A stretch of DNA of 64,000 nucleotides, from NCBI GenBank assembly GCA_902781945.1, contig CACZLE010000009.1:1-64000 (forward strand), read 5' to 3'. Position numbers and translations under genes: made by a program. The notes below the pieces were generated by a model. That model was not told where the DNA came from and did not search any database. It saw nothing but the letters and a program-made list of their open reading frames with translations. This stretch comes from an uncultured Eubacteriales bacterium. Lineage in GTDB: Bacteria > Bacillota > Clostridia > Christensenellales > Aristaeellaceae. Below are positions 2,957 through 34,899 of the stretch, piece by piece. Each line of letters begins with the position of its first letter. The stretch's first letter is position 1.

Positions 2957-4435
2957 TCAGCCGCCCGTGGCCAGCCGCATCATATTGGTTTCGTTCATGG
3001 TTTCGCCGCTTACCTCGGCGCGCACGTCGCCGTGATACATCACCAGCGCCCGTCCGCACACGCGGATGATCTCCTGGGCCTCGTTGCTGAGCACCACCAC
3101 GGCCACGCCCTGCCGGGCCAGGCGCAGGATGATGTCGTAGATCTCCTCCTTGGCGCCCACGTCCACGCCCTGGGTGGGGTTGTCCAGGATCAGTAGCTTG
3201 GGCTCGGCGCTGAGCCACTTGGCCAGTACCACCTTCTGTTGGTTGCCGCCGGACAGGCTGCCGATCATGTCGTCGGCGTCCTGCATCTTGATCTGCAATT
3301 CCTGCCGCTGCTTGTTGAAGGCGGCAAGCTGCTTTTTGCGGCTGATGATGCCAAATTTCGTCAGCCGGTCCAGGGTCACGATGGAGCCGTTGTCCAGGAT
3401 GCTCATATCCTTGATGATGGCGTTTTCCTTGCGGTTGCGGGGCAGATAGCCGATGCCCAGCTTCAAAGCCTGGCGGGTGGATTTCATGTGCACGGGCTGG
3501 CCTGAAAGAAAGATTTGCCCTTCGTATTTGCCGCCGTCGCCAAACACCGTGCGGAACAGCTCGCTGCGCCCGTCGCCCAGCAGGCCCGTGACGCCCAGCA
3601 CCTCGCCTGTGTGCACGGACAGGCTGACGTTCCGGTAATGGGGCTCCTGGGTCAGCTTTTCCAGCCGCAGCACCTCGGGGCCGATCTGGCTGTTTTGTTC
3701 CAGGGTTTCGGTGCGCACGTCGTGGCCCACCATGTCGTGGGCGATGGAGGCGATGGAGGTCTCGGCCACCAGGCCGTGTGACACGGCCACGCCGTCCCGC
3801 AGCACAACGTAGCTGTCGCAGATTTCCATCACCTCGCGCAGCTTGTGGGAAATGAAGATCACGCCTACGTTCTGCTTTTTCAGCGTGCGCAGCATATCAA
3901 AAACGCGCTCGATCTCGGGATCGGTCAGGGACGTGGTGGGTTCGTCCATGATGATGATGGAGGCTTTCATCATCAGCGCGCGGGAGATTTCGACGATTTG
4001 CTTGTAGCTGGCGTCCAGGGTGCTTACCAGGGCCGCGGGGTCGATATCGATGTCCATGCGGGCAAAAAGCTCCCGGGTGAGGCGCAGCTCCTCTTTGTGA
4101 TCGATGACGTTGGCGTATTTTTTGATCTCCCGGCCAATGAACATGTTTTCATATACCGGCAGATCGTTGATCAGGTTCAGCTCCTGATGGATAAAGGCTA
4201 TGCCCGCGTCCAGGGACTGGGCGGGGGAATGGAAGGCGACGGGCTTGCCGTCCAGGATGATTTGTCCCTGGTCGGCCTGCAATACGCCGCCCAGGATGTT
4301 CATCAGCGTGGATTTGCCGGCGCCGTTTTCGCCCAGCAGCGCGCAGATTTCTCCTGCCTCCAGGCTGAAATCCACCTGCCGCAGCACGTCATTGGCGCCG
4401 AAGGATTTGACGATTCCCTTCATGGAAAGGTTCAT
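2957..4435 (-). CDS. Sugar ABC transporter ATP-binding protein (RbsA/MglA type)
   Basis: 492 aa with two fused nucleotide-binding domains, the hallmark of carbohydrate (CUT2) importers. The first half has Walker A GENGAGKST and Walker B IIIMDEPT; the second half has the signature LSGGNQQKV and Walker B LLILDNPTQG. As usual for CUT2 proteins, the second site is degenerate at Walker A (GLLGDGRSE). It energises the permease encoded downstream. A hairpin separates it from the binding-protein gene, which may reduce its expression relative to that gene. Confidence 0.94.
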   Translation of the reverse strand: MNLSMKGIVKSFGANDVLRQVDFSLEAGEICALLGENGAGKSTLMNILGGVLQADQGQIILDGKPVAFHSPAQSLDAGIAFIHQELNLINDLPVYENMFIGREIKKYANVIDHKEELRLTRELFARMDIDIDPAALVSTLDASYKQIVEISRALMMKASIIIMDEPTTSLTDPEIERVFDMLRTLKKQNVGVIFISHKLREVMEICDSYVVLRDGVAVSHGLVAETSIASIAHDMVGHDVRTETLEQNSQIGPEVLRLEKLTQEPHYRNVSLSVHTGEVLGVTGLLGDGRSELFRTVFGDGGKYEGQIFLSGQPVHMKSTRQALKLGIGYLPRNRKENAIIKDMSILDNGSIVTLDRLTKFGIISRKKQLAAFNKQRQELQIKMQDADDMIGSLSGGNQQKVVLAKWLSAEPKLLILDNPTQGVDVGAKEEIYDIILRLARQGVAVVVLSNEAQEIIRVCGRALVMYHGDVRAEVSGETMNETNMMRLATGG

Positions 4436-22363: not shown

Positions 22364-24013
<1,650 letters not shown>

Positions 24014-24029
24014 TCAATATTCGGGAAAA

Positions 24030-24314
24030 TTACTCCACGATGGCCAGGATATCCTTCTGGCTGACGATCTTCACTTCCTGACCGTCCAGCTTCACTTCGG
24101 TACCGGCATACTTGGAGTAGATGACCTTCTGACCGACCTTCACCTGCATGGTGACCTGCTTGCCGTCCACTTCCCCGCCGGGGCCCACGGCCAGCACTTC
24201 GGCCATCTGGGGCTTTTCCTTGGCGGCGGACGTCAGGATGATGCCGCTCTTGGTGGTTTCTTCGCTCTCCACATCCTTGATGACCACGCGGTCAAACAGA
24301 GGCTTGATGTTCAT
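24030..24314 (-). CDS. groES: 10 kDa co-chaperonin GroES
   Basis: 94 aa, normal length. [20 protein letters not shown] and the mobile-loop region ([12 protein letters not shown]) are standard, as is the [15 protein letters not shown] motif. It is the heptameric lid of GroEL, first gene of the operon, with AAGGAGGA before its start and the CIRCE operator in its leader. Confidence 0.98.
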
Positions 24315-24360
24315 GATATATCCTCCTTGATTAATGAATGTACTTTGTTCATTCAGTTTG

Positions 24361-24387
24361 TTAGCACTCTTTTTCGTTGAGTGCTAA
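24361..24387 (-). promoter_or_regulatory. CIRCE operator (HrcA site)
   Basis: A perfect TTAGCACTC-N9-GAGTGCTAA inverted repeat in the groES leader, just downstream of the predicted transcription start. CIRCE is bound by the HrcA repressor, which releases on heat shock. hrcA itself is not in this window. Confidence 0.97.
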
Positions 24388-24402
24388 CGCCCTGCAATTG
24401 GT

Positions 24403-24431
24403 ATTTTACCGCAAATCAGCCTGGTATGCAA
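24403..24431 (-). promoter_or_regulatory. Promoter of groES-groEL
   Basis: TTGCAT (24426-24431), 17-nt spacer, TAAAAT (24403-24408) on the minus strand, placing the start about 10 nt before CIRCE. Confidence 0.7.
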
Positions 24432-24585
24432 TACCTTTTTTGAAAAAATTTTTAAAAATATTGGGAACTTTTTTCGCTTGCCGCAAAAAAATCCGTATTT
24501 CGGCATTTTATGCGCACCTCTGCGGAAACGGCGGCACGATCCGGTCAATATTCGTCAAAATACATCTGAAAAACCGCAAAATCTA

Positions 24586-24614
24586 TTGACCCGCTATGCT
24601 ATTTGCTGTATAAT
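24586..24614 (+). promoter_or_regulatory. Promoter of the leader-peptide operon
   Basis: TTGACC (24586-24591), 17-nt spacer, TATAAT (24609-24614). Transcription would start near 24621, giving a leader of about 185 nt before the M20 gene. The 24432-24585 stretch before it is AT-rich and I see nothing else there. Confidence 0.8.
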
Positions 24615-24645
24615 GCACTCATTCTCAGAATAGGAGGCAGGCGGC

Positions 24646-24753
24646 ATGGTGCAGATCGTCTTTTCCCGGCTTCTGCGTATCTGTATGTGCGGCTGCTGTA
24701 TGCAGTCTCGCTTTGCGTGCGCCTGCCGGGGAGTGCCAGATTTGGCCATATGA
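24646..24753 (+). CDS. Cysteine-rich leader peptide (35 aa)
   Basis: A short frame with its own TAGGAGG ribosome site, encoding 35 residues with six cysteines at positions 13, 15, 17, 18, 25 and 27 (core RICMCGCCMQSRFACACR). It lies wholly inside the leader of the M20/ABC operon and stops 9 nt before an intrinsic terminator hairpin. The pattern is that of a transcription-attenuation leader reading cysteinyl-tRNA supply. Segment 24714-24723, over codons 23-26, can pair with the 5' arm of the terminator (9 of 10 positions, one of them G-U), giving a possible antiterminator that a ribosome stalled at Cys17-18 would leave free. No experimental proof; the Cys response is inferred. Confidence 0.72.
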   Translation: MVQIVFSRLLRICMCGCCMQSRFACACRGVPDLAI

Positions 24754-24762
24754 CTGTTCAGG

Positions 24763-24787
24763 GGGCGTCCGCAGGGACGCCCTTTTT
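24763..24787 (+). terminator. Attenuator terminator in the leader
   Basis: GGGCGTCC (24763-24770), a GCAG loop, GGACGCCC (24775-24782) and five T residues. It sits between the leader peptide and the M20 gene, so it would block the whole operon when formed. Confidence 0.9.
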
Positions 24788-24806
24788 GATTGAATGGAGG
24801 GACGGG

Positions 24807-25934
24807 ATGGAAACCCAGGCATTGATCGCCTTTTTCGAGGACCTGCATCGCCATCCGGAATTGGGCTTTGAGGAGGTGCGCACCACCGCCCGGGTTCGGG
24901 AGGCGCTGACCGCCGCCGGGGTCGAGCTGCTGGATACGGGCCTGAAAACCGGCCTCATCGCCGTCGTCCGCGGCAGCCGTCCGGGCCGGGTCATCGGCCT
25001 GCGCTGCGATATGGACGCCCTGCCCATCCAGGAGGAAAGCGGCCTGGCCTACGCCTCACAGGAGCCGGGCAGGATGCATGCCTGCGGCCACGATTTCCAT
25101 ACCGCCTGCATGCTGGGCGCGGCCCTGCTGCTGAAGGAGCGGGAAAAAGACCTGGCGGGTACGGTCAAGATCGTTTTCCAGCCCGCGGAGGAGCTGGGCA
25201 CCGGCGGCGCGAAGTCCGTGGTGGATACCGGGCTGCTGAGCGACGTGCAGGAGTTCTACGCCATCCATTCTTATCCTTATTTCGATCCCGGCGCCCTGGG
25301 CATCAAGGAAGGCCCGGTGATGGCCGCGCCGGACCGGTTCAGCGTCACTTTATATGGAAAAGGCGCCCACGCCGCCCAGCCCCATGACGCCATCGATCCC
25401 GTTCCGGCTCTGGCGGCCCTGATTCAGGGCTTCCAAACCGCCGTCAGCCGCAATGCCGATCCCTTCGATCCCGCCGTGGTCACCATTGCCCACGTGCAGG
25501 CGGGCACCGCCTGGAACGTGATCCCGGAATCCGCCCTGCTGGAGGGCACGGTGCGCACGCTGGATAACGGCGTGCGCCGCATGATCCGGGATCGGCTGGA
25601 AAAGCTGACCTCCTCCATCGCCGCGGCCTATGGCTGCACCGCAGAATTCCGGTATGTGGAAGGCCCCGATCCTGTGGTCAACGACGCGGCGCTCTGCGCT
25701 GTCTGCAAGGACCTGGCCCTGCGGATGGGCTTCCAAGTGGATCGCCAGGAGGATACCATGGGCGGCGAGGATTTCAGCGAATACCTCAAAATCTGTCCTG
25801 GCGTCTTTGTGCGGGTGGGCACCGGCGGCCACGTGGCCAGCCATCATCCCGCCTTCACGGTGGACAGCGCCGCGCTGCCCGCCGCCGCCGAATTCTTTGC
25901 TTCCCTGGCCCGCGAACGGGCTGAATATATGTAA
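24807..25934 (+). CDS. M20-family amidohydrolase (IAA-amino-acid hydrolase/hippuricase type)
   Basis: 375 aa zinc or manganese amidohydrolase that releases an amino acid from an N-acyl or conjugated form. Metal-binding residues of the subfamily are visible: C93 and H95 in MHACGHDFH, E128/E129 in FQPAEE, and the late SHHPAF histidine; CDMDALP and GGEDFSEY are also typical. ATG 24807 follows GGAGGGACGGG. It is the first structural gene behind a cysteine-codon attenuator and precedes a peptide-type importer, so removal of an acyl group from an imported cysteine derivative is a reasonable hypothesis, not shown by the sequence. Confidence 0.9.
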   Translation: METQALIAFFEDLHRHPELGFEEVRTTARVREALTAAGVELLDTGLKTGLIAVVRGSRPGRVIGLRCDMDALPIQEESGLAYASQEPGRMHACGHDFHTACMLGAALLLKEREKDLAGTVKIVFQPAEELGTGGAKSVVDTGLLSDVQEFYAIHSYPYFDPGALGIKEGPVMAAPDRFSVTLYGKGAHAAQPHDAIDPVPALAALIQGFQTAVSRNADPFDPAVVTIAHVQAGTAWNVIPESALLEGTVRTLDNGVRRMIRDRLEKLTSSIAAAYGCTAEFRYVEGPDPVVNDAALCAVCKDLALRMGFQVDRQEDTMGGEDFSEYLKICPGVFVRVGTGGHVASHHPAFTVDSAALPAAAEFFASLARERAEYM

Positions 25935-25950
25935 AAAAGGAGAATGTACC

Positions 25951-27528
25951 ATGAAAAAGCTGCTTGCCCTCGTTTTGACCGCCGTTATGCTCTTTTCCAT
26001 GCTGTCCTTTGCCTCCGCGGAGGATAAGGCGGTGAACATCGGCGTCACCAGCACCCTCACCACCCTCAATCCCCTGGCCGTGGACAATACCGAGATCGTC
26101 AAATACGCCGTGTCCCTGGTGTTCCTGCCCCTGGTGGAGCTGAATGAAAACCTGGAGTTCGTGCCCCAGCTGGCCGAAAGCATCACCACCGAGGACAACC
26201 TGACCTTCACCATCAAATTGCAGGACAGCGCCGTGTGGAGCGACGGCGAGCCCGTCACCGCCGAGGACGTGGCTTTCACCCTGGCCATCGGCGCGGACCC
26301 CGTTTCCGCCAACGTGGCCCTGCCCCTGTATTCCGTGGAGGGCACCGATGACGACGGCTTCATCGAATCCGGCGCTGCCGATATCAGCGGCGTGCAGGTG
26401 GTGGACGACAAGACCCTGACCGTCACCACCAAGTGGCCCACCGCCCTGTATACCTTTGAAAACAACTTTGGCCGCTATCTTTTCACCGTGCCCAAGCACG
26501 TTCTCAAGGACGTGGCCCGGGAAGACTTGCTGACCTATGCTTGGTTTAACTCCCCCGACGTCATCTCCGGCCCCTATTTCATCAGCGATTTTGATCTGCA
26601 GCACTATGTGCGCTGCACCGCCAACGAAAATTATTTCCTGGGCGCGCCCAAGATCAAATATCTGAACTTCAACGTGGTGGCCGCCTCCCAGATGCTGGCG
26701 GGCCTGCGCAGCGGCGAAATCGACCTGGTGCAGCAGACCACCGGCTCCATCCCTGTGGAGGATTATGACGCCGTCAAGGCCCTGGACAACGTCACTGCCG
26801 TCGCCGGCACCCCCGTCACCAACGAGTCCATCTTCATCAACACTGCCAACGTCAGCGACGTGCGCGTCCGTCAGGCCCTGCTCTGCGGCATGGATCGCCA
26901 GAGCATGTTCGATGCGCTGCTGGGCGGCAACGGCGAACTGGTGGACGGCTTCATTGTGTCCGCCTCTCCCTATTTCAGCGAGGAGCTGGGCGTCACCGCC
27001 TATGATCCCGAGAAGGCCGCGGCCCTGATCGCCGAAGCCAAGGCCGACGGCGCCAAGACCGACCTGGTGTGGTATGTCAATTCCTCCGAGGCCACCTTCG
27101 GTCAGGCGGTGGAATACTATGCCGCCATGTTTGAGGAAATCGGCCTGCATATCGAGATCCGCACCGTCAGCCTGGCCAACCTGATGGAGGTTGCGGGTAA
27201 CCTGGAGCACGACATCATGAGCGTGGAATACACCTACGCCCCCGTGGACCCCTACACCGACGTGGCCTGGCTGCTGGGCGGCGAGGGCAGCTGGACGGGC
27301 TATGCCTCTGACGCCACCGACGAAGCCCTGCTGCTCAGCCAGGAGCTGACCGACGTGGGCGAAATCACCCAGCAGTACCTGATCGTGGACAAAGCCATGC
27401 AGGAAGACGTGGCCATGATCTCCGGCTGGGTGCTGGCCACCCTGGGCGCGGTGAGCAACCGCCTCTCCGGCGTGACCCCCAATGTGTTCGGCACCTTCGT
27501 GAACGTGCAGAACTGGGACATTCAGTAA
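25951..27528 (+). CDS. Peptide/opine-type ABC transporter substrate-binding protein (family 5)
   Basis: 525 aa with signal peptide (MKKLLALVLTAVMLFSMLSF). The family 5 (DppA/OppA) hallmark is clear: WSDGEPVTAEDVAFTL, SGPYFISDF and the RQALLCGMDRQSMFD segment. ATG 25951 is preceded by AAGGAG. Such proteins deliver di- or oligopeptides, nickel chelates or modified amino acids to a DppBCDF permease, which is encoded downstream in full. A strong hairpin follows the stop codon. No obvious lipobox. Confidence 0.93.
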   Translation: MKKLLALVLTAVMLFSMLSFASAEDKAVNIGVTSTLTTLNPLAVDNTEIVKYAVSLVFLPLVELNENLEFVPQLAESITTEDNLTFTIKLQDSAVWSDGEPVTAEDVAFTLAIGADPVSANVALPLYSVEGTDDDGFIESGAADISGVQVVDDKTLTVTTKWPTALYTFENNFGRYLFTVPKHVLKDVAREDLLTYAWFNSPDVISGPYFISDFDLQHYVRCTANENYFLGAPKIKYLNFNVVAASQMLAGLRSGEIDLVQQTTGSIPVEDYDAVKALDNVTAVAGTPVTNESIFINTANVSDVRVRQALLCGMDRQSMFDALLGGNGELVDGFIVSASPYFSEELGVTAYDPEKAAALIAEAKADGAKTDLVWYVNSSEATFGQAVEYYAAMFEEIGLHIEIRTVSLANLMEVAGNLEHDIMSVEYTYAPVDPYTDVAWLLGGEGSWTGYASDATDEALLLSQELTDVGEITQQYLIVDKAMQEDVAMISGWVLATLGAVSNRLSGVTPNVFGTFVNVQNWDIQ

Positions 27529-27540
27529 TCAAATCATGCA

Positions 27541-27573
27541 GCCCCACACCGGCTTTCATCCCCGGTGTGGGGC
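27541..27573 (+). promoter_or_regulatory. Intercistronic hairpin after the binding-protein gene
   Basis: A perfect 12-bp stem (27541-27552 with 27562-27573) and 9-nt loop with no T-run, 12 nt after the stop codon. Probable mRNA 3'-end stabiliser or partial terminator that favours binding-protein expression over the downstream genes. Confidence 0.75.
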
Positions 27574-27594
27574 CTGCCTGTGAAAGGAATCGCC

Positions 27595-28575
27595 ATGGAA
27601 CCGCTTTTGCGCTTGCAGGATCTGGAGATCACCTTTGGCCGCGGAGCCCGGGCAGCCCGGGCCGCCTCCGGGGTGTCTTTTTCCGTGTACCCCGGCGAGA
27701 TCCTGTGCGTGGTGGGGGAAAGCGGCAGCGGCAAGAGCATCACCGCCCTGTCCGTCCTGGGCCTCCTGTCCCGGCAGGGGCGAGTCACGGGCGGCCATAT
27801 TTGGTGGCAGGGCAAGGACCTGTTGACCCTGCCGCAAAAGCAATTGGACCAATTGCGGGGCACGGAGATCAGCATGATCTTTCAGGACATCATGTACAGC
27901 CTCAACCCCGTGCTCACCATCGGCCTGCAGATGACCGAGGGTATGCGGCGGCATCTGAAAATGAGCGCCGAGGAAGCGAAACAGCGGGCCGTTGAACTGC
28001 TGACCCACACCGGCATCCGGGACGCGGCCCAGGTGATGAAAAAGTATCCCCACATGCTGTCCGGCGGCATGCGCCAGCGGGTCATGATCGCCATGGCCCT
28101 GGCCTGCAGGCCCAAGCTGCTCATCGCCGACGAGCCCACCACCGCCCTGGATGTCACCATCCAGTTGCAGATCATGCAATTGCTGCGGCAGCTGCGGGAC
28201 GAGACCGGCATGGCCGTGCTGCTCATCACCCACGATCTGGGGGTGGCGGCGGAGATGGCGGACCGGGGTGTGGTGATGTATGCGGGCCAGTGCGTGGAGC
28301 AGGCCCCCATTCACCAGCTGCTTTCCCATCCGGCCCATGCCTACACCCAGGCGCTTTTGCAGGCCGTGCCCGGTCTTCACGACAGCCGGGACAAGCGGCT
28401 CTATTCCATTCCCGGCCACGTACCGGAGACATACGGCGATTTGACGGGCTGCCGCTACGCGGCGCGCTGTCCCCATGGGCAGGATTGCCCCCGCCGCATG
28501 CAGGATGAGCTGCGGGAGATCGCCCCCGGCCACCTGAGCCGGTGCCTGAACGAAGGAGGGATGCCGGATGCCTGA
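27595..28575 (+). CDS. Peptide ABC transporter ATP-binding protein (DppD type)
   Basis: 326 aa. Walker A GESGSGKS, signature LSGGMRQRVMIAMAL and Walker B LLIADEPTTALD are intact. The C-terminal cysteine cluster typical of DppD/OppD (CRYAARCPHGQDCPRRM) is present and in this family can hold an Fe-S cluster. The start at 27595 follows an AAAGGA site. It overlaps the next gene by 8 nt and pairs with it as the second ATPase. Confidence 0.94.
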   Translation: MEPLLRLQDLEITFGRGARAARAASGVSFSVYPGEILCVVGESGSGKSITALSVLGLLSRQGRVTGGHIWWQGKDLLTLPQKQLDQLRGTEISMIFQDIMYSLNPVLTIGLQMTEGMRRHLKMSAEEAKQRAVELLTHTGIRDAAQVMKKYPHMLSGGMRQRVMIAMALACRPKLLIADEPTTALDVTIQLQIMQLLRQLRDETGMAVLLITHDLGVAAEMADRGVVMYAGQCVEQAPIHQLLSHPAHAYTQALLQAVPGLHDSRDKRLYSIPGHVPETYGDLTGCRYAARCPHGQDCPRRMQDELREIAPGHLSRCLNEGGMPDA

Positions 28576-29539
28576 AAACATCGTGCTGGAAACCCGGCAT
28601 CTGTCCAAATCCTATCGGATCTCCGGCGAAAACAGCCTGTTTGCCAAGACCTTCCGGGCCGTTTCCGACGTATCCGTCGCGGTGCGGCAGGGAGAGACCT
28701 TTGGCATCGTGGGGGAGAGCGGCTGCGGCAAATCCACCATGGCCCGGCTGATGATGTGCCTGGAAAAGCCGGACGCGGGGGAAGTGTATCTGCAGGGCAA
28801 GCGCATAGACAACCTGCCTGAAAGCGAACGCCGCAGGCTGCGGCCCCGATTCCAGATGGTGTTTCAGGACAGCGGCTCCTCCTTAAATCCCCGCAAGCGG
28901 GTGCAGGACATCCTGCGGGAGCCCATGCTGTATCATCGCGTCGGGGATGAAAAGCAGGTGGACGCCCGGGTGGAGGAGCTGCTCGATATGGTGGGCTTGC
29001 CCGTGGAGATGAAGCGGCGCTATCCCCATGAATTCAGCGGCGGTCAGCGCCAGCGCATCTGCATCGCCCGGGCCCTGTCCCTGAACCCTGACGTCATCGT
29101 GCTGGACGAGCCCGTTTCCGCCCTGGATGTCTCCGTCCAGGCGCAGATTTTGAACCTTCTGCGGGATTTGCAGCAAAGCCTGCATCTCACCTATGTGTTC
29201 ATCGGCCACGGTCTGGGCGCTGTGCATTATATCAGCCATCAGATCGCCGTCATGTATATGGGCCGGGTGGTGGAAATGGGCCCCTCGGACACCCTGTTCG
29301 ATCATCCCGCGCACCCCTACACCAAGGCCCTGCTGGACGCCGCTCCCGTGGCGGACGACACCCTGCGGAGCCGGGAGCGCACGGTGATGGCGGAGGAGAT
29401 CGGCGATTACGCGCCCGCGGAGGGCTGCCCGCTGCTGCCCCGCTGCCCCTATGTGGACGAGGGCTGCCGCAATCGCGGCCAGGCGCTCTTTGAAACGGCG
29501 GGACGGCTGACAGCCTGCGACAGGATGCTGGAGGGATAA
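28568..29539 (+). CDS. Peptide ABC transporter ATP-binding protein (DppF type)
   Basis: 323 aa. Walker A GESGCGKST, signature FSGGQRQRICIARAL, Walker B VIVLDEPVSALD. The usual DppF RPRFQMVFQD segment and the C-terminal CPLLPRCPYVDEGC cysteine motif are seen. The switch histidine after Walker B lies in FIGHGLGAV, where most relatives have THD; Gly replaces Asp but the His is kept. Confidence 0.94.
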   Translation: MPENIVLETRHLSKSYRISGENSLFAKTFRAVSDVSVAVRQGETFGIVGESGCGKSTMARLMMCLEKPDAGEVYLQGKRIDNLPESERRRLRPRFQMVFQDSGSSLNPRKRVQDILREPMLYHRVGDEKQVDARVEELLDMVGLPVEMKRRYPHEFSGGQRQRICIARALSLNPDVIVLDEPVSALDVSVQAQILNLLRDLQQSLHLTYVFIGHGLGAVHYISHQIAVMYMGRVVEMGPSDTLFDHPAHPYTKALLDAAPVADDTLRSRERTVMAEEIGDYAPAEGCPLLPRCPYVDEGCRNRGQALFETAGRLTACDRMLEG

Positions 29540-29542
29540 GCC

Positions 29543-30487
29543 ATGTGGAAATACATCCTTAAAAAATTACTGCTGGCCATCCCGGTGCTGCTGGGCATCA
29601 CCATCATCGATTACGCCATCATGTCCCTGGCGGGCAGCCCGCTGGATATGCTGGTGGGCCCCCGCATCAGCCAGGGCACCATCGCCGCCCGCGCCGCCCA
29701 ATGGGGGCTGGATCAGCCCATCTATGTGCAGTATTGGCATTGGCTGGTGGAGGTGCTCCACGGCAATCTGGGCTATTCCTACAAAAGCTATCAGCCGGTG
29801 TCCGAGCTGATCGCCAGCCACATTGGGCCCACGCTGCTGCTCATGGGCGTCTCCATGATATTGGGCCTTCTCCTGGCCGTGCCCGCGGGCATTTACAGCG
29901 CCGTGCACCGGTATCAAAAGCGGGATTACGCCGTGGTGTCGGCCTCCTTCCTGGCCTCCAGCATCCCCGGCTTTTTCCTGGCCCTGATCCTCATTTATAT
30001 CTTTACCGTGGTGCTGGGCTGGCTGCCCTCCAGCGGCATGATCACCGCGGGCACCGGCGGCGACGCGGCGGATATCGCCCGGCATATGGTCATGCCCTCC
30101 ATCGTGCTGGCGGTGGGGGTGGCGGGCGGCAACATCCGCTATATCCGCTCCGCGGTGCTGGAGATATTGGAAATGGATTACCTGCGCACCGCCACGGCCA
30201 AGGGCCTGGGGCGCGGGCTGGTGATCCGCCGCCACGCCCTGCGCAACGCCCTTTTGCCCATCGTCACGGTGATCGGCATGCAGATCCCCACGCTCTTTGG
30301 CGGCGCGGTGATCGTGGAGCAGCTTTTCTCCTGGCCCGGGCTGGGGCTCATCACCATGAACGCCGTCACCGGGCGCGATTATCCCGTCATCATGGGCGTG
30401 TGCCTGCTGTCCGCCGTGGTGGTGCTGGCCTCAAACCTTTTGACGGATATCCTCTACGCCGTGGTGGACCCCACCATCAAATACTGA
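29543..30487 (+). CDS. Peptide ABC transporter permease (DppB type)
   Basis: 314 aa with six hydrophobic segments. The N-terminal KKLLLAIPVLLGITIIDY and the EMDYLRTATAKGLGRGLVIRR cytoplasmic loop (EAA motif) are typical of DppB/OppB. It starts 3 nt after the DppF-type gene and forms a heterodimeric channel with the next product. Confidence 0.94.
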   Translation: MWKYILKKLLLAIPVLLGITIIDYAIMSLAGSPLDMLVGPRISQGTIAARAAQWGLDQPIYVQYWHWLVEVLHGNLGYSYKSYQPVSELIASHIGPTLLLMGVSMILGLLLAVPAGIYSAVHRYQKRDYAVVSASFLASSIPGFFLALILIYIFTVVLGWLPSSGMITAGTGGDAADIARHMVMPSIVLAVGVAGGNIRYIRSAVLEILEMDYLRTATAKGLGRGLVIRRHALRNALLPIVTVIGMQIPTLFGGAVIVEQLFSWPGLGLITMNAVTGRDYPVIMGVCLLSAVVVLASNLLTDILYAVVDPTIKY

Positions 30488-30497
30488 GGAGATCGCC

Positions 30498-31343
30498 ATG
30501 AAACAGAGCAAGTACCGCGTGATCTGGCAGCGCTTCCGGCGGCACAAAATGGCCGTCGGCTGCCTGGTGATCCTGAGCGTTTTGATCCTCATGGCCATCC
30601 TGGCCCCCCTCATCGCCCCCTATTCGCCCACCAAGCCCGCGGGCAAGTTTTCCCAGCCGCCCTCCGGCGAGCATATCCTGGGAACGGACAAGATAGGCCG
30701 AGACATGTTCAGCCGCATCCTGTACGCCATGCGGGTGAGCCTGCTGGTGGGCTTCCTGGCCACGGCGGTCTCCACCGCCATCGGCGTGGCCCTGGGGCTG
30801 GTCAGCGGCTATTTCGGCGGGGCGGTGGACAAGGCCATCATGAGCTTTACCGATATGGTCATGTCCTTCCCCTATATCCTGCTGGTGCTGGTGGCGGCGG
30901 CCATCTTTAAGCCCGGCATGTGGTCCATCATCCTGATATTGGGCTTTGTGGATTGGCCCGGCGTGGCCCGGCTGGTGCGGGGCAACGTGCTGAGCCTCAG
31001 GGAAACCAACTTCATCAAGAGCGATATCACCGCGGGCATGCCCCGGCGCTATATCCTCTTTTCCGAGATCCTGCCCAACACCGTGGCCCCCGTGCTGGTG
31101 TACGCCACCAGCGTTTTCGCTCTGTCCATCCTGGATGAAGCTGCCCTGTCCTTCCTGGGCATGGGCGTGCAGCCCCCTACCCCGTCCCTGGGCAATCTGC
31201 TCAACGGCGCGGAATCCCTGTCCGTGCTCACGGGCAAGCCCTGGCTGTGGATCCCGGCGGGGGCCGTCATCATCCTGCTGGTGGTATGCATCAACTTTGT
31301 GGGCGACGCCCTGCGCGACGCCTTTGATCCCAAGAATTCTTAA
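30498..31343 (+). CDS. Peptide ABC transporter permease (DppC type)
   Basis: 281 aa. It opens with the RFRRHKMAVGCLVIL block common to DppC/OppC, followed by LGTDKIGRDMFSRILY and the EAA-loop region. The C-terminal GDALRDAFDPK ending is the family standard. RBS GAGGAG precedes the start. Confidence 0.94.
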   Translation: MKQSKYRVIWQRFRRHKMAVGCLVILSVLILMAILAPLIAPYSPTKPAGKFSQPPSGEHILGTDKIGRDMFSRILYAMRVSLLVGFLATAVSTAIGVALGLVSGYFGGAVDKAIMSFTDMVMSFPYILLVLVAAAIFKPGMWSIILILGFVDWPGVARLVRGNVLSLRETNFIKSDITAGMPRRYILFSEILPNTVAPVLVYATSVFALSILDEAALSFLGMGVQPPTPSLGNLLNGAESLSVLTGKPWLWIPAGAVIILLVVCINFVGDALRDAFDPKNS

Positions 31344-31367
31344 CCCGACCGAGAGAGGCACAAGAAC

Positions 31368-31970
31368 ATGAAGAACCTGCTCAACTACCAATCCTCCGAA
31401 TTCGACTGCGGCCCCACCTCCATGACCAACGCCATCCGCTATCTGTTTGACCGGGAGGAGATCGCCCCCGGCGTGCTCAAGCATATCTGGGTGATGGGCA
31501 ACGACACCTTCTGCGACGAGGGCCAGATCGGCAAGCACGGCACCTCCAAAGCCTCCATGCGCTATATGGCCGCCTGGCTCAACGCCTTTGGCAAGGGCTG
31601 CAAATTCCCCATCCATGCCGAATTTCTGGAGCTGGAGGACGCCGTGGTCCTCCCCGGCACCCGCACCTGGCAATGTCTGGAAGAAGGCGGCTGCGCCGTC
31701 ATGCGCTGCTTCTCCGGGGGCTATGGCCACTATGTGCTGCTCACCCGCATTCTTTCCGACCACGAGATCGGCCTTTTCGATCCATATGAGGAGGACCCGG
31801 AATTTGAGGGCGAGGGACGCCGGGTCATCGAGAGCGAGCCCCGGGTGATGAACCGGGCCGCGTATACCGAGATCATCAACGGCGCCGACGAAAGCGATTA
31901 CGCCATGGGCAAGCCGGAGATCCGGGAATTATTGCTGCTGTGGAAAAAACGGGCTGATACTATTTCTTGA
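31368..31970 (+). CDS. C39-like cysteine peptidase, cytoplasmic
   Basis: 200 aa, no signal peptide. The papain-like arrangement is clear: C14 in DCGPTSMTNAIRYL, H121 in GGYGHYVLL and D138 in GLFDPYEE. This matches the peptidase C39-like family, which includes peptidases and related amidases. It is the last gene of the peptide-importer operon, 24 nt after DppC. Working on the imported substrate inside the cell, together with the M20 enzyme, is the simplest reading. The true bond cleaved is unknown. Confidence 0.75.
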   Translation: MKNLLNYQSSEFDCGPTSMTNAIRYLFDREEIAPGVLKHIWVMGNDTFCDEGQIGKHGTSKASMRYMAAWLNAFGKGCKFPIHAEFLELEDAVVLPGTRTWQCLEEGGCAVMRCFSGGYGHYVLLTRILSDHEIGLFDPYEEDPEFEGEGRRVIESEPRVMNRAAYTEIINGADESDYAMGKPEIRELLLLWKKRADTIS

Positions 31971-31981
31971 TTAACATGACG

Positions 31982-32595
31982 CTGGAAAACAGAAATAGGC
32001 GAGAGGGAACGATAAGGGCCTCCGCGGCCCTTATGATCCTGCGCCAGGGTATTTCATACCCTGGACCCATCCTGGCGAACCGGCTTGAATACGCTATCAA
32101 GCAAAATCCGCCAGTTTAGCCTATGGCTGGCTGCAATGAGCCGTCTGGGGCCAATGAAAAAGCCGATAGCTGTCTGATTCGAGCAAGCTCGATCAGCCAT
32201 CTATCGGACTTTTTCGGAATCGCTGCGCGATTCTCGGCCTGCTGCGCAGACCGACCCCAGACTCGCGTGCGTTTTTTGCCAAACTTTCTTGCAGCTCCCG
32301 CGACAGAAATGACGTCGGCTTGCCGACGTCAATGCTGCTTTAGCAGCATAGCCGCATAAGCAAAAGTGACCGGATCGAGCTTGCTCGTTTCCGGTCATCT
32401 TTTGTGTTGCGGCGTATTTCTGGAGCACGGCACAAGTCATGCCTTATCCAATTTACTGGCGGAAATTGTTTGAAAGTGTATTCAAGTTGATTCGCCAGGA
32501 AAGGGTGTCCAGAGGGCCCAAGCGGGCCCTTTGGCGAGGTGTTTGAGGGCGAGTAGCCCTCAACGTTTCCTCTCCATCAAATTCTTGTTTTTCCA
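31982..32595. repeat. Nested inverted-repeat element, copy B
   Basis: A 614-bp non-coding palindrome-like element filling the gap between convergent genes. Outer arms (around 31984-32014 and 32564-32595) are imperfect; a middle pair TCCTGGCGAA-N4-CTTGAATAC (32070-32092) is perfectly mirrored at 32478-32500; an inner pair TCCGCCAGT (32107-32115) is mirrored by ACTGGCGGA (32455-32463). Small hairpins occur at 32012-32034 and 32044-32064, and several with GAGCTTGCTC-type loops within the cassette. It shares long blocks with 151-665, with the inner cassette in reverse orientation. No transposase. Confidence 0.85.
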
Positions 32596-32611
32596 ATTAT
32601 GGAAAACTGCA

Positions 32612-33799
32612 TCATCCCAGCAGCTTAAAGAACGCCTCCATCTCCGCCTTGTGCTTCCCTCGGCACACGATGTGGTGATTGTTGATGGGATTGGTGAGAA
32701 AGTACGAAAAATCATCCAGCCCGATGCGCACCTGGGTGCGGCACAGCATATCGCTGAAGGGCGTATCCAGGATCTGGCCCTCCTGGGCATAGAACCGGGA
32801 CAGATCGCCCGCGCACTTGAAGATGGTGCAGTCGCCTTCGTCAAATTTGCCCTGCACCGCCGCGCCGATGCCGGATTCAAAGTGGGTGTTGAGGCAGTAC
32901 TCTTTGAGCATGGTGGTGGGCACCGTGCAATGGGCGAAGGTGGCGCATTTGGCCTTGGTGTCAAACCGGCTGGGATTGCACATGAACAAGGGCTCGCCTG
33001 TAACGGCCCCCAGGATGGCCATGGACAGCAGGGCGGGCATATCGCCCTCGCAGCCGCCGTAAACGCCCAGGCTGTTGAGGATGGAGAGGCCCAGACAGCC
33101 CGTGGTGTGCACGCTGTCCAATAGGTCGAAGCACCGCACGGACACGCCGCACAGGCCGTATTTGCCCACCAAACGCTGGAAAGCGCCGTATACATACAGC
33201 GCCTTTTCAATCTCCTCCGCAGGGAAAGCCTGCTTTTTGAAGTCCGCCGTATACTCGTTTTCCTCGTAGCGGTTCTTGGCGATTTCGGTCAGCAGTTCTT
33301 CCATGGGGATGGATACGAACCCCAGCCCCAGCTTTTGCAGTACGGCGTCCGCGTCGTAATCGCTGGCAATCAGCCAGTCGGAGGGCGCGCCGACGCAGCC
33401 CAGCTTCTTCCCCCGCAGGGCATGCAGGGCCCGGTGGGCGTTGCGCAGGGCGCGGATCTCCTTGGCGATCTCCTGCAGGTCTCCGTGCAATATCTGCCCG
33501 TGGCCGCCGTGCTTGTTCAGGTAGCTGAGGATCTCCATGGAGGCCGCCAGGGAGTTGGATTCCCCGCTGGTCAGAATATAGCAGGGGCGATCCTTCAACT
33601 GCTCGAACACCTCCAGAAAATACCCTTCGCTGCCGCCGGAGGCCACGTAAAGCAGGGCGAAATCATCCGCCAGATACTGCGCCAGCTCCACCCGGCGCAG
33701 GTCTTCGCCCAGGGCCTGGCCCACGGCCTGGATATATTGGTCCATCCGTTCGTCACTCACCTGGGACAGGGGGCTGCGGATCTGATAAAAATCGATCAT
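32612..33799 (-). CDS. L-fucose/L-arabinose isomerase-like protein
   Basis: 395 aa. The overall pattern (alternating Rossmann-like N-terminal part, then GVYGGCEGDMPALLSM and a C-terminal NNHHIVCRG block) resembles the FucI/AraA isomerase fold used by aldose-ketose isomerases and related proteins. I cannot place all metal ligands, so isomerase activity is unproven. ATG 33799 is used, with GGAGAAAACAC upstream. It is the last gene behind an FbpABC-type importer, which hints that this transporter carries a sugar or sugar phosphate instead of iron. Confidence 0.7.
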   Translation of the reverse strand: MIDFYQIRSPLSQVSDERMDQYIQAVGQALGEDLRRVELAQYLADDFALLYVASGGSEGYFLEVFEQLKDRPCYILTSGESNSLAASMEILSYLNKHGGHGQILHGDLQEIAKEIRALRNAHRALHALRGKKLGCVGAPSDWLIASDYDADAVLQKLGLGFVSIPMEELLTEIAKNRYEENEYTADFKKQAFPAEEIEKALYVYGAFQRLVGKYGLCGVSVRCFDLLDSVHTTGCLGLSILNSLGVYGGCEGDMPALLSMAILGAVTGEPLFMCNPSRFDTKAKCATFAHCTVPTTMLKEYCLNTHFESGIGAAVQGKFDEGDCTIFKCAGDLSRFYAQEGQILDTPFSDMLCRTQVRIGLDDFSYFLTNPINNHHIVCRGKHKAEMEAFFKLLG

Positions 33800-33828
33800 G
33801 TGTTTTCTCCTGTTGTTTTTGTCAAAGG

Positions 33829-33854
33829 GGGCGCTGCGGAAAACCGCAGCGCCC
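33829..33854 (-). promoter_or_regulatory. Intercistronic hairpin after the binding-protein gene
   Basis: A perfect 11-bp GC stem with a 4-nt loop between the binding-protein stop and the isomerase-like gene. No strong T-run follows on the minus strand, so read-through into the last gene is expected. Confidence 0.75.
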
Positions 33855-33879
33855 GATTTTGTGTTGCCGTCTGAATGGA

Positions 33880-34899
33880 TCAGCGGGTCTCGGCGTACAG
33901 CGCGTTCCACTTCTCCAGCATATCGGCCTTGTGCTCGATCAGCCAGCTGGTGTCGCGGGATACCCAGTTGATGGTGTCGTCGGCGGGCAGATACTTGATT
34001 TCATAGTGAGCCTTGGGGTTGGTGAAGCGCAGGGTCTCCAGGCGGGTGGCCAGGGCTTCCTGGCCCTCGGGGCTCATCAGGAAGTTGATCATGGCCTTGG
34101 CGGCTTCGGGATGGGGGCAGTTTTCGATCATGGCGCAGCCCATGGTGGTGCCGCTGGCGCCGTTCTCGGGATACTGGATGCGGATGCGGTCGGAACCGGC
34201 CTTGAGCAGGGTGTCGGCGCCGTCCTCATAGGTCAGGCCCACCACGTACTCGCCGCTGTCCACAGCCTTGAAGCACACGGAGGAGGAGGTGGAGATCACC
34301 AGGCCGTTCTCCAGCAGGCCGCGCATGATGGCCCAGGCTTCGTCGCTGTCATAGCCGTACACGGCGAAGATATTGCACACGTTGTTCCAGGCGGCGGAGG
34401 AGCTGTTGGGGTCGCTCAGCACGATGCGGCCCTTGAGGGCGGGATTCAGCAGATCTTCATAGGTGCGGATCTCCAGGCCCAGCTCCTTTTCCAGCTCCAC
34501 GTTCACGCAGAAGCAGATGGTGCTCAGGTGGTCCTGGTTGTAGCGGCCATTGTGGCTCCTGTAATCGGCGGGCAGATCATCCTCGTAGGGAGAGGTGTAC
34601 AGCGCGTAGATGTCGTCGTTGGCGCTGCCGTCGGAGGGGGACAGGCCGCCCCACTGCACGTCGCCCTGGGGATTGCCGGCTTCGGCGCGGGTACGGGCCT
34701 GCAGTTCGCCGGCGGAGCCGTTCACCACTTCCACTTCCACGTCGGGATACACTTCGTTGAAGGCTTCGATCAGGTTGTCGATGTCGTTGTCGGTCATGGA
34801 GCTGTACAGCACCAGGGGACCCTTGACAGTCTCCGCCACGGCGGAGAAGGCGGCCAGCGCCAGAACGGCGGCCAGCAGGAGACATACCAGTTTCTTCAT
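33880..34899 (-). CDS. FbpA/AfuA-type ABC substrate-binding protein
   Basis: 339 aa with signal peptide (MKKLVCLLLAAVLALAAFSA). The mature start GPLVLYSSMTDNDIDNLIEAF and the GDVQWGG segment are typical of family 1 binding proteins for ferric iron, 2-aminoethylphosphonate or hexose phosphates. The paired tyrosines of true ferric-binding proteins are not evident near the C terminus. The gene is third in an ATPase-permease-binding-protein-isomerase operon, an unusual order with the binding protein late. Confidence 0.88.
   Translation of the reverse strand: MKKLVCLLLAAVLALAAFSAVAETVKGPLVLYSSMTDNDIDNLIEAFNEVYPDVEVEVVNGSAGELQARTRAEAGNPQGDVQWGGLSPSDGSANDDIYALYTSPYEDDLPADYRSHNGRYNQDHLSTICFCVNVELEKELGLEIRTYEDLLNPALKGRIVLSDPNSSSAAWNNVCNIFAVYGYDSDEAWAIMRGLLENGLVISTSSSVCFKAVDSGEYVVGLTYEDGADTLLKAGSDRIRIQYPENGASGTTMGCAMIENCPHPEAAKAMINFLMSPEGQEALATRLETLRFTNPKAHYEIKYLPADDTINWVSRDTSWLIEHKADMLEKWNALYAETR

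Follow-up and report, generated by a model that had tools for sequence, protein, structure and literature searches.

Control of the cysteine and methionine genes of the Bacillota is known mainly in the form of T-boxes, S-boxes and repressors such as CymR. As late as 2010, leader peptides counted as new in Firmicutes, the predicted histidine leaders of bacilli being an example (PMC2965389), and the cysteine codons of short upstream reading frames are described from mycobacteria, where the predicted polycysteine leaders carry their Cys runs near the stop codon and come without a conserved terminator (PMC1262725). Experimental work reports these mycobacterial leaders to be leaderless and to act by translational attenuation (Canestrari 2020, as cited in PMC13236596). 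On the enzymatic side, ScmP of Bacillus subtilis serves cysteine recovery as an N-acetylcysteine deacetylase (PMC12757645), and staphylococci break down Cys-Gly conjugates with a dipeptidase and the C-S lyase PatB (PMC11742315).

The locus considered here lies within the window, the whole 64-kb stretch of DNA analysed, and combines both themes, as a short reading frame rich in cysteine codons precedes an operon for an M20 amidohydrolase, an oligopeptide-type importer and a C39-like peptidase. With good confidence, we read the leader as a classical ribosome-mediated transcription attenuator that senses charged Cys-tRNA and controls an operon importing and hydrolysing a cysteine compound. Because the same switch precedes cysteine and methionine genes across the family, it very probably turns on these genes at cysteine shortage in this group of uncultured rumen-type Clostridia. 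An earlier note on this DNA had interpreted the Cys-codon leader and terminator as an attenuator of this one operon; the interpretation is supported and is refined here to a family-wide regulon. In the open literature, which leaves most subscription journals outside, neither a cysteine attenuator with an intrinsic terminator nor this regulon was found for Clostridia; if the reading is true, cysteine attenuation of an entire regulon through intrinsic terminators would be a solution new to this class.

Anatomy of the leader

All elements are on the forward strand, and the promoter, Shine-Dalgarno sequence, 35-codon frame with six Cys codons, terminator and M20 gene claimed by the earlier note are all present where it had placed them. 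The sigma-70-type promoter TTGACC-N17-TATAAT (24586..24614) has 11 of 12 matches and shows the same spacing to the leader in three relatives (L019, L024, L025). It is followed by the Shine-Dalgarno sequence AGGAGG (24632..24637) and by the leader frame itself, which extends over 35 codons from ATG 24646 to TGA 24753, with Cys at codons 13, 15, 17, 18, 25 and 27 (translation MVQIVFSRLLRICMCGCCMQSRFACACRGVPDLAI). Directly 3' of the first Cys codons a hairpin, GGCTGC-TGTAT-GCAGTC (24691..24707), keeps its stem in L024 and L025 with a varying loop. The 5' strand of the antiterminator (24714..24727) overlaps Cys codons 25 and 27, and can be read as TGCG.TGCGCC in the register of the earlier note or as TGCG(CC)TGCC in the family register. 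The intrinsic terminator (24762..24787), a stem at 24762-24783 followed by TTTTT with a computed -18.7 kcal/mol, begins 8 nt past the leader stop, and its 5' arm and loop (24761-24773) provide the 3' strand of the antiterminator. As the M20 ATG at 24807 is located only 23 nt beyond the terminator stem, there is no space for a second promoter before the M20 gene.

A cluster of at least four Cys in six codons is found in 1 of the 136 short frames with a Shine-Dalgarno sequence in the 64-kb window, namely the leader frame alone, in none of the 3,288 such frames in 1.23 Mb of background from related loci, and in none of 3,000 dinucleotide shuffles of the leader region. Further upstream, at 24361-24387, the window carries a perfect CIRCE-type (HrcA) inverted repeat, TTAGCACTC-N9-GAGTGCTAA, which is located upstream of a minus-strand groESL.

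The antiterminator

The alternative pairing that had been claimed, 24714-24723 with 24761-24773, is reproduced at 9 of 10 positions with -13.7 kcal/mol. It engages the same terminator arm as the register conserved in the family, which joins TGCG(YC)TGCC with GGCA(YC)CGCA and in the window places 24718-24727 opposite 24764-24773, with 4+4 pairs around a 2x2 loop and -9.2 kcal/mol. The originally claimed register is the more stable one in the window because TGCG is duplicated here.

When run unprompted on an alignment of 28 leaders, RNAalifold reports the antiterminator helix as the only one, at columns 115-119 with 177-181. With the second half of the helix included, 93.3% of the cells pair, as opposed to 14-64% upon sliding by one to three columns, and 10 cells are compensatory, compared with 4.0 +/- 1.6 after shuffling (0 of 500 shuffles reach 10). 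The base ahead of TGCG and the one that follows CGCA are Watson-Crick partners in 16 of 23 leaders, where 8.6 +/- 1.8 would be expected (p = 1e-4); the combinations are G-C, A-U and U-A in leaders with a single motif and C-G in L211. Cognate antiterminator duplexes also exceed permuted ones in strength (p = 0.001). The controls leave some shared ancestry in these numbers, yet neither the A-U nor the G-C state is confined to a single gene class. At the position of the pair with the best covariation across the family, the window and its sister have a G-G mismatch.

The region from the Shine-Dalgarno sequence to the start codon (24636-24650) is in turn complementary to the antiterminator strand at 24718-24727 (GGCAGGCG.CA with TGCGCCTGCC), and L025 possesses a counterpart, GACGCAC with GTGCGTC. 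This complementarity is a possible extra anti-antiterminator.

Folding and the proposed switch

The untranslated leader of the window is more stable than its shuffles (z = -3.4) and holds the antiterminator strand in the leader hairpin. If a ribosome is placed at Cys17 and the transcript ends ahead of the terminator's 3' arm, the 5' arm pairs upstream with a probability of mostly 0.7-0.9, compared with 0.2-0.4 without translation. At equilibrium, on the other hand, the full-length RNA of the window leader prefers the terminator wherever the ribosome is placed, the stop codon being the one exception, while across 45 leaders the stalled and unstalled states differ little (0.56 versus 0.53, 28 of 43 leaders, p = 0.02) and family-wide folding by ribosome position does not separate early from late Cys codons. 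Folding the leader in both states, a check put forward in the earlier note, has given the expected shift to the antiterminator for the cut transcript, but neither for the full-length equilibrium nor as more than a small effect in the family.

As the full-length equilibrium favours the terminator and the difference between stalled and unstalled leaders is small, a kinetic argument is needed. The folding permits, but does not prove, a kinetic switch, and the claim is carried by the comparative evidence. The computation establishes the anatomy and its conservation, compensatory changes within the antiterminator, a gene context made up mainly of sulfur genes and the linkage of the transporter to cysK, patB and metB elsewhere.

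In the mechanism that we propose, a leader without a ribosome would keep the region past the first Cys codons in the leader hairpin, the terminator would form and transcription would stop. With ample cysteine, the ribosome would pass the second pair of Cys codons to reach the stop codon and cover the antiterminator strand, whereupon the terminator would equally form. When Cys-tRNA is scarce, the ribosome would stall at codons 13-18 and thereby break the leader hairpin, the freed segment 24714-24727 would pair with the 5' arm and loop of the terminator before the 3' arm is made, and, with the antiterminator formed, RNA polymerase would read through into M20-SBP-oppDFBC-C39 (SBP, solute-binding protein). 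The operon would then take in a peptide-like or N-acylated cysteine compound, from which intracellular hydrolysis would release cysteine. We infer here both the stalling upon cysteine shortage and the exact register that would be used.

Distribution of the leader and its downstream genes

Promoter, Shine-Dalgarno sequence, a frame with a Cys run and terminator also precede the M20 gene in L019, L024 (leader peptide MTMHGNYNMVCMCMCGCVKQPCLRCVCRA) and L025. A leader is equally found ahead of the orthologous operon in L095-L106 and L118 and, in divergent versions, in L240 and L241, while one close relative (L023/L242) possesses the operon without the leader. The Cys cluster, the terminator and the alternative pairing, on the conservation of which the proposal had been staked, recur in the orthologous operons, and they are found before other cysteine and methionine genes as well.

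As a profile of the leader peptide alone singled out only the window (E 4e-16) and one other genome (G100, 3e-6), models at the DNA level were chosen, which use sequence only and are blind to the downstream genes. A model built from four leaders has matches in 47 of 308 family genomes (E<=0.01) and a second one, built from 28 leaders, in 60 of the 308 (E<=1e-3); since the search partly selects Cys-like sequence, the Cys content of these matches is not independent of it. Curation of the matched loci by eye, with a frame containing Cys as the criterion, yielded 48 leaders, and for 47 of them (one was left unassigned) the gene behind the leader is metQ (19), metN (3), cysK (2), metY (1), an SDF symporter (4), an amino-acid ABC permease (1), an M20/Opp or Opp operon (15) or GNAT+SBP (2), whereby the assignment was verified with NCBIfam and Pfam for ten representatives and made for the others on reading, by similarity to these. 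An intrinsic terminator is located 8-49 nt past the leader stop in 45 of the 47 leaders tested. Matches that lack the architecture were discarded as false, in the R1 set L119, L120, L122-L124, L158, L160, L166, L168 and L170-L174, and in the R2 set L221, L223 and L225.

Beyond the family, no further model match at E<=1e-4 was obtained in about 370 sampled genomes of the same order, and a class-wide sample yielded one match, in G968 from another family of the class. At this locus (L244) a Met-rich leader, MKKIKNMTMMYMCMFRMLFSQAFKADGCMALCLAPAYDD, and a terminator precede metN; among 120 relatives of G968 no other convincing leader came to light, and the matches in a second family apart from G968 were false. 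Judged from these searches, the leader would belong to a family-wide, largely sulfur-amino-acid regulon and not to a single operon, a conclusion that the distribution supports.

Several loci deserve a remark of their own. The genome of the window carries a second, divergent and Met-rich leader, MKNLRMCSMRMRDFLCDAVFRM, before metQ (L233, about 3103-3227, minus strand), which scores only 9.3 bits with R2. In L161 and L164 the gene behind the Cys leader encodes a GNAT acetyltransferase and is itself followed by one for another family-5 solute-binding protein, together perhaps a route for the N-acetylation of cysteine conjugates. In the metQ class a further mini-ORF or motif (xIGGVCDRM, DNA CGAATG) is conserved between terminator and metQ, about 99-114 nt past the leader stop (L108, L110, L112, L155, L156, L165, L201, L206, L209, L211, L212 and others), and CGAATG-stop also ends several leader frames. 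The MetQ/NlpA proteins of the family look circularly permuted, with profile positions 88-236 ahead of 1-98 in one open frame (G000:C24:15153-15992, L228/L229 and L232; G000:C31:2231-3001, L230/L231 and L233; also L108 and L121).

The CxCxCC-like cluster, in a frame that with its Shine-Dalgarno sequence and promoter is well expressed on paper, could suggest a functional small peptide binding metal or thiols, with a terminator that merely ends its transcript. We consider this very improbable, as the peptide is only 34% identical between operon orthologues and poorly conserved outside its Cys and Met residues and some short motifs at the C-terminus, whereas the DNA core of the leader is conserved; moreover, the short distance to the terminator stem means that the M20 gene can be transcribed only by read-through or from a further promoter upstream, compensatory change is seen in the antiterminator and the gene context is mainly that of sulfur metabolism. 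The highly conserved core DNA and the strong, conserved folding would also suit a metabolite-binding, riboswitch-like RNA or a T-box, in which the Cys codons are incidental. Against this, the alignments retain the Shine-Dalgarno sequence, the start codon and the Cys codons in frame although spacing and surrounding sequence vary, and the Rfam covariance models give no match at E<=1 within 24000-34000 of the window, be it T-box, S-box or any known RNA. Seven Lachnospiraceae loci likewise hold no RNA known to Rfam, and a T-box motif regular expression run over the loci gave two isolated matches only. Such an RNA is scarcely credible here, and the ribosome-mediated attenuator is the reading retained.

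It can next be asked whether the attenuator is specific for cysteine. Leaders of the M20-Opp, Opp and SDF-symporter classes contain 18-21% Cys and 6-11% Met, those of the metNIQ class 15% Cys and 23% Met, and the Met content differs between the classes with p = 1e-11, a nominal value because residues are pooled over related leaders. Because these shares differ by class, the codon make-up tracks the downstream function, and some leaders may sense both amino acids since in many sister leaders, for the most part those ahead of metNIQ, Met is as frequent as Cys. In its broadest form, this is the view of a real attenuator that is not cysteine-specific, in which stalling at Met or Cys codons, or a general slowing of translation, reads the sulfur amino acids jointly or translation stress. 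Apart from the Met-rich metNIQ class and the class difference in Met, the alternation of Met and Cys codons in the core, including CMCGCCM in the window, speaks for it; the maintenance of Cys with so little Met in the Opp, M20-Opp and SDF-symporter leaders speaks against it, as does the window leader, which with six Cys and two internal Met is, by its codons, of the cysteine kind. This alternative is deemed unlikely, though it keeps some weight next to a cysteine-sensing attenuator.

A broader proposal, to which we give slightly better than even chances, is that the whole family runs the uptake and synthesis of sulfur amino acids by spreading homologous Cys/Met attenuators, the codons of which are tuned per operon (Cys-weighted before cysteine importers, Met plus Cys before metNIQ), and that M20-Opp-C39 is a new pathway scavenging N-acylated or peptide-bound cysteine. 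The leader would also serve as a gene-finding tool, as genes behind it are likely to concern cysteine or methionine.

The operon and its cargo

The M20/peptide-importer/C39 operon claimed for the window is found in full on the plus strand, in the order M20 amidohydrolase (PF01546; 24807..25934), family-5 solute-binding protein of the OppA/DppA type by family profile match (25951..27528), OppD-type ATPase (27595..28575, with an uncertain start codon at 27565 or 27595), OppF-type ATPase (28568..29539), OppB-type permease (29543..30487), OppC-type permease (30498..31343) and a predicted stand-alone C39-like papain-fold peptidase (31368..31970). In the neighbourhood, on the minus strand, a gene at 32612-33802 weakly matches the sulfoquinovose isomerase SftI (E 1e-9) and adjoins a gene for an extracellular solute-binding protein (33880-34899, minus), conserved beside the operon in L019.

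The last gene product, of 200 residues, has no match in Pfam or NCBIfam. Its AlphaFold model (pLDDT 86) finds the C39 domains of PCAT1 and ComA among the best Foldseek matches (E 2e-4 to 1e-2, TM 0.34-0.56), and Q8, C14, H121 and D138 are invariant in 30 homologues. The model thus predicts a peptidase C39/papain-like fold with conserved Gln, Cys, His and Asp. The M20 enzyme is 46% identical to B. subtilis YxeP over 364 aligned columns (367 bits), the best of all solved structures, and YxeP is equated with ScmP through the yxe/scm renaming (PMC12757645). The enzyme is accordingly closest to ScmP/YxeP, with a putative N-acetylcysteine deacetylase activity.

Through homologues of the C39-like protein, 76 operon neighbourhoods were gathered. 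Close relatives share the order M20-SBP-oppDFBC-C39, and dozens of Lachnospiraceae have SBP-oppDFBC-M20 with a divergent C39 gene, a recurrence that marks these genes as a genuine unit. About 20 Lachnospiraceae loci that have no leader carry cysK beside the SBP gene, on the same strand of the SBP-Opp-M20 cluster; patB is also present in ten of them and metB in some. Clusters of the form metB-patB-cysK-SBP-oppDFBC-M20 with a divergent C39 gene are seen in L055, L066, L067, L069, L074, L081, L090 and others.

The linkage to cysK, patB and metB in Lachnospiraceae and the likeness of the M20 enzyme to YxeP are two independent lines that point to cysteine. The operon would take up an N-acyl- or peptide-linked cysteine compound, as putative substrate, that is hydrolysed intracellularly; the scavenging role that had been proposed, with import and release of cysteine, gains independent support in this way, and the substrate is the part that we infer. 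It is conceivable, if on balance rather unlikely, that the attenuator senses cysteine while what the operon takes up is ordinary peptides or some other compound, cysteine being one product among several. The solute-binding protein and permeases match only general oligopeptide families and the C39-like enzyme has a peptidase-type fold, as this alternative would have it; cysK, patB and metB within the Lachnospiraceae operons and the ScmP-like M20 enzyme, however, indicate a cysteine compound, which we prefer. The leader thereby assigns a role to an uncharacterised SBP-Opp-M20-C39 set conserved in Lachnospiraceae, with which the operonic cysK, patB and metB agree.

Comparison with known systems

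The importer of the B. subtilis scm operon is of the scm type and not of the Opp type. This operon (formerly yxe) resembles that of the window in an M20 enzyme, of 46% identity, beside an importer and in a role in cysteine recovery, putative for the window (PMC12757645). It differs in that the window carries a C39-like peptidase in place of the acetyltransferase and monooxygenase and has its operon under proposed attenuation control. Staphylococcal Cys-Gly breakdown likewise hydrolyses a cysteine-containing dipeptide conjugate and employs PatB as does the Lachnospiraceae version of the operon; it is described in the portion of the source used here without an Opp-M20-C39 set and without an attenuator, and the window operon, conversely, is without patB.

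Mycobacterial polycysteine leaders share Cys codons in a short upstream frame before cysteine genes. The leader of the window is not a member of this group, as it has a Shine-Dalgarno sequence with about 30 nt between the predicted -10 box and the ATG, an intrinsic terminator and a co-varying antiterminator, and its main Cys cluster is located at codons 13-18 of 35.

The closest architecture is that of the trp, his and ilv type attenuators of Proteobacteria and Actinobacteria, with which the window leader shares a frame led by a Shine-Dalgarno sequence, clustered codons for the regulated amino acid and a strand common to antiterminator and terminator. Among the classical features found are a leader frame with its own ribosome-binding site, a codon cluster beyond chance, a terminator before the first gene, an exclusive antiterminator and codons that match the pathway, as judged by cysK, metY and metNIQ behind sister leaders and cysK in the orthologous Lachnospiraceae operon. 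Different from the trp type are the amino acid, cysteine and in sister leaders apparently also methionine, the host, a family of uncultured Clostridia, and the position of the antiterminator strand, which lies inside the 3' half of the reading frame, over the second pair of Cys codons.
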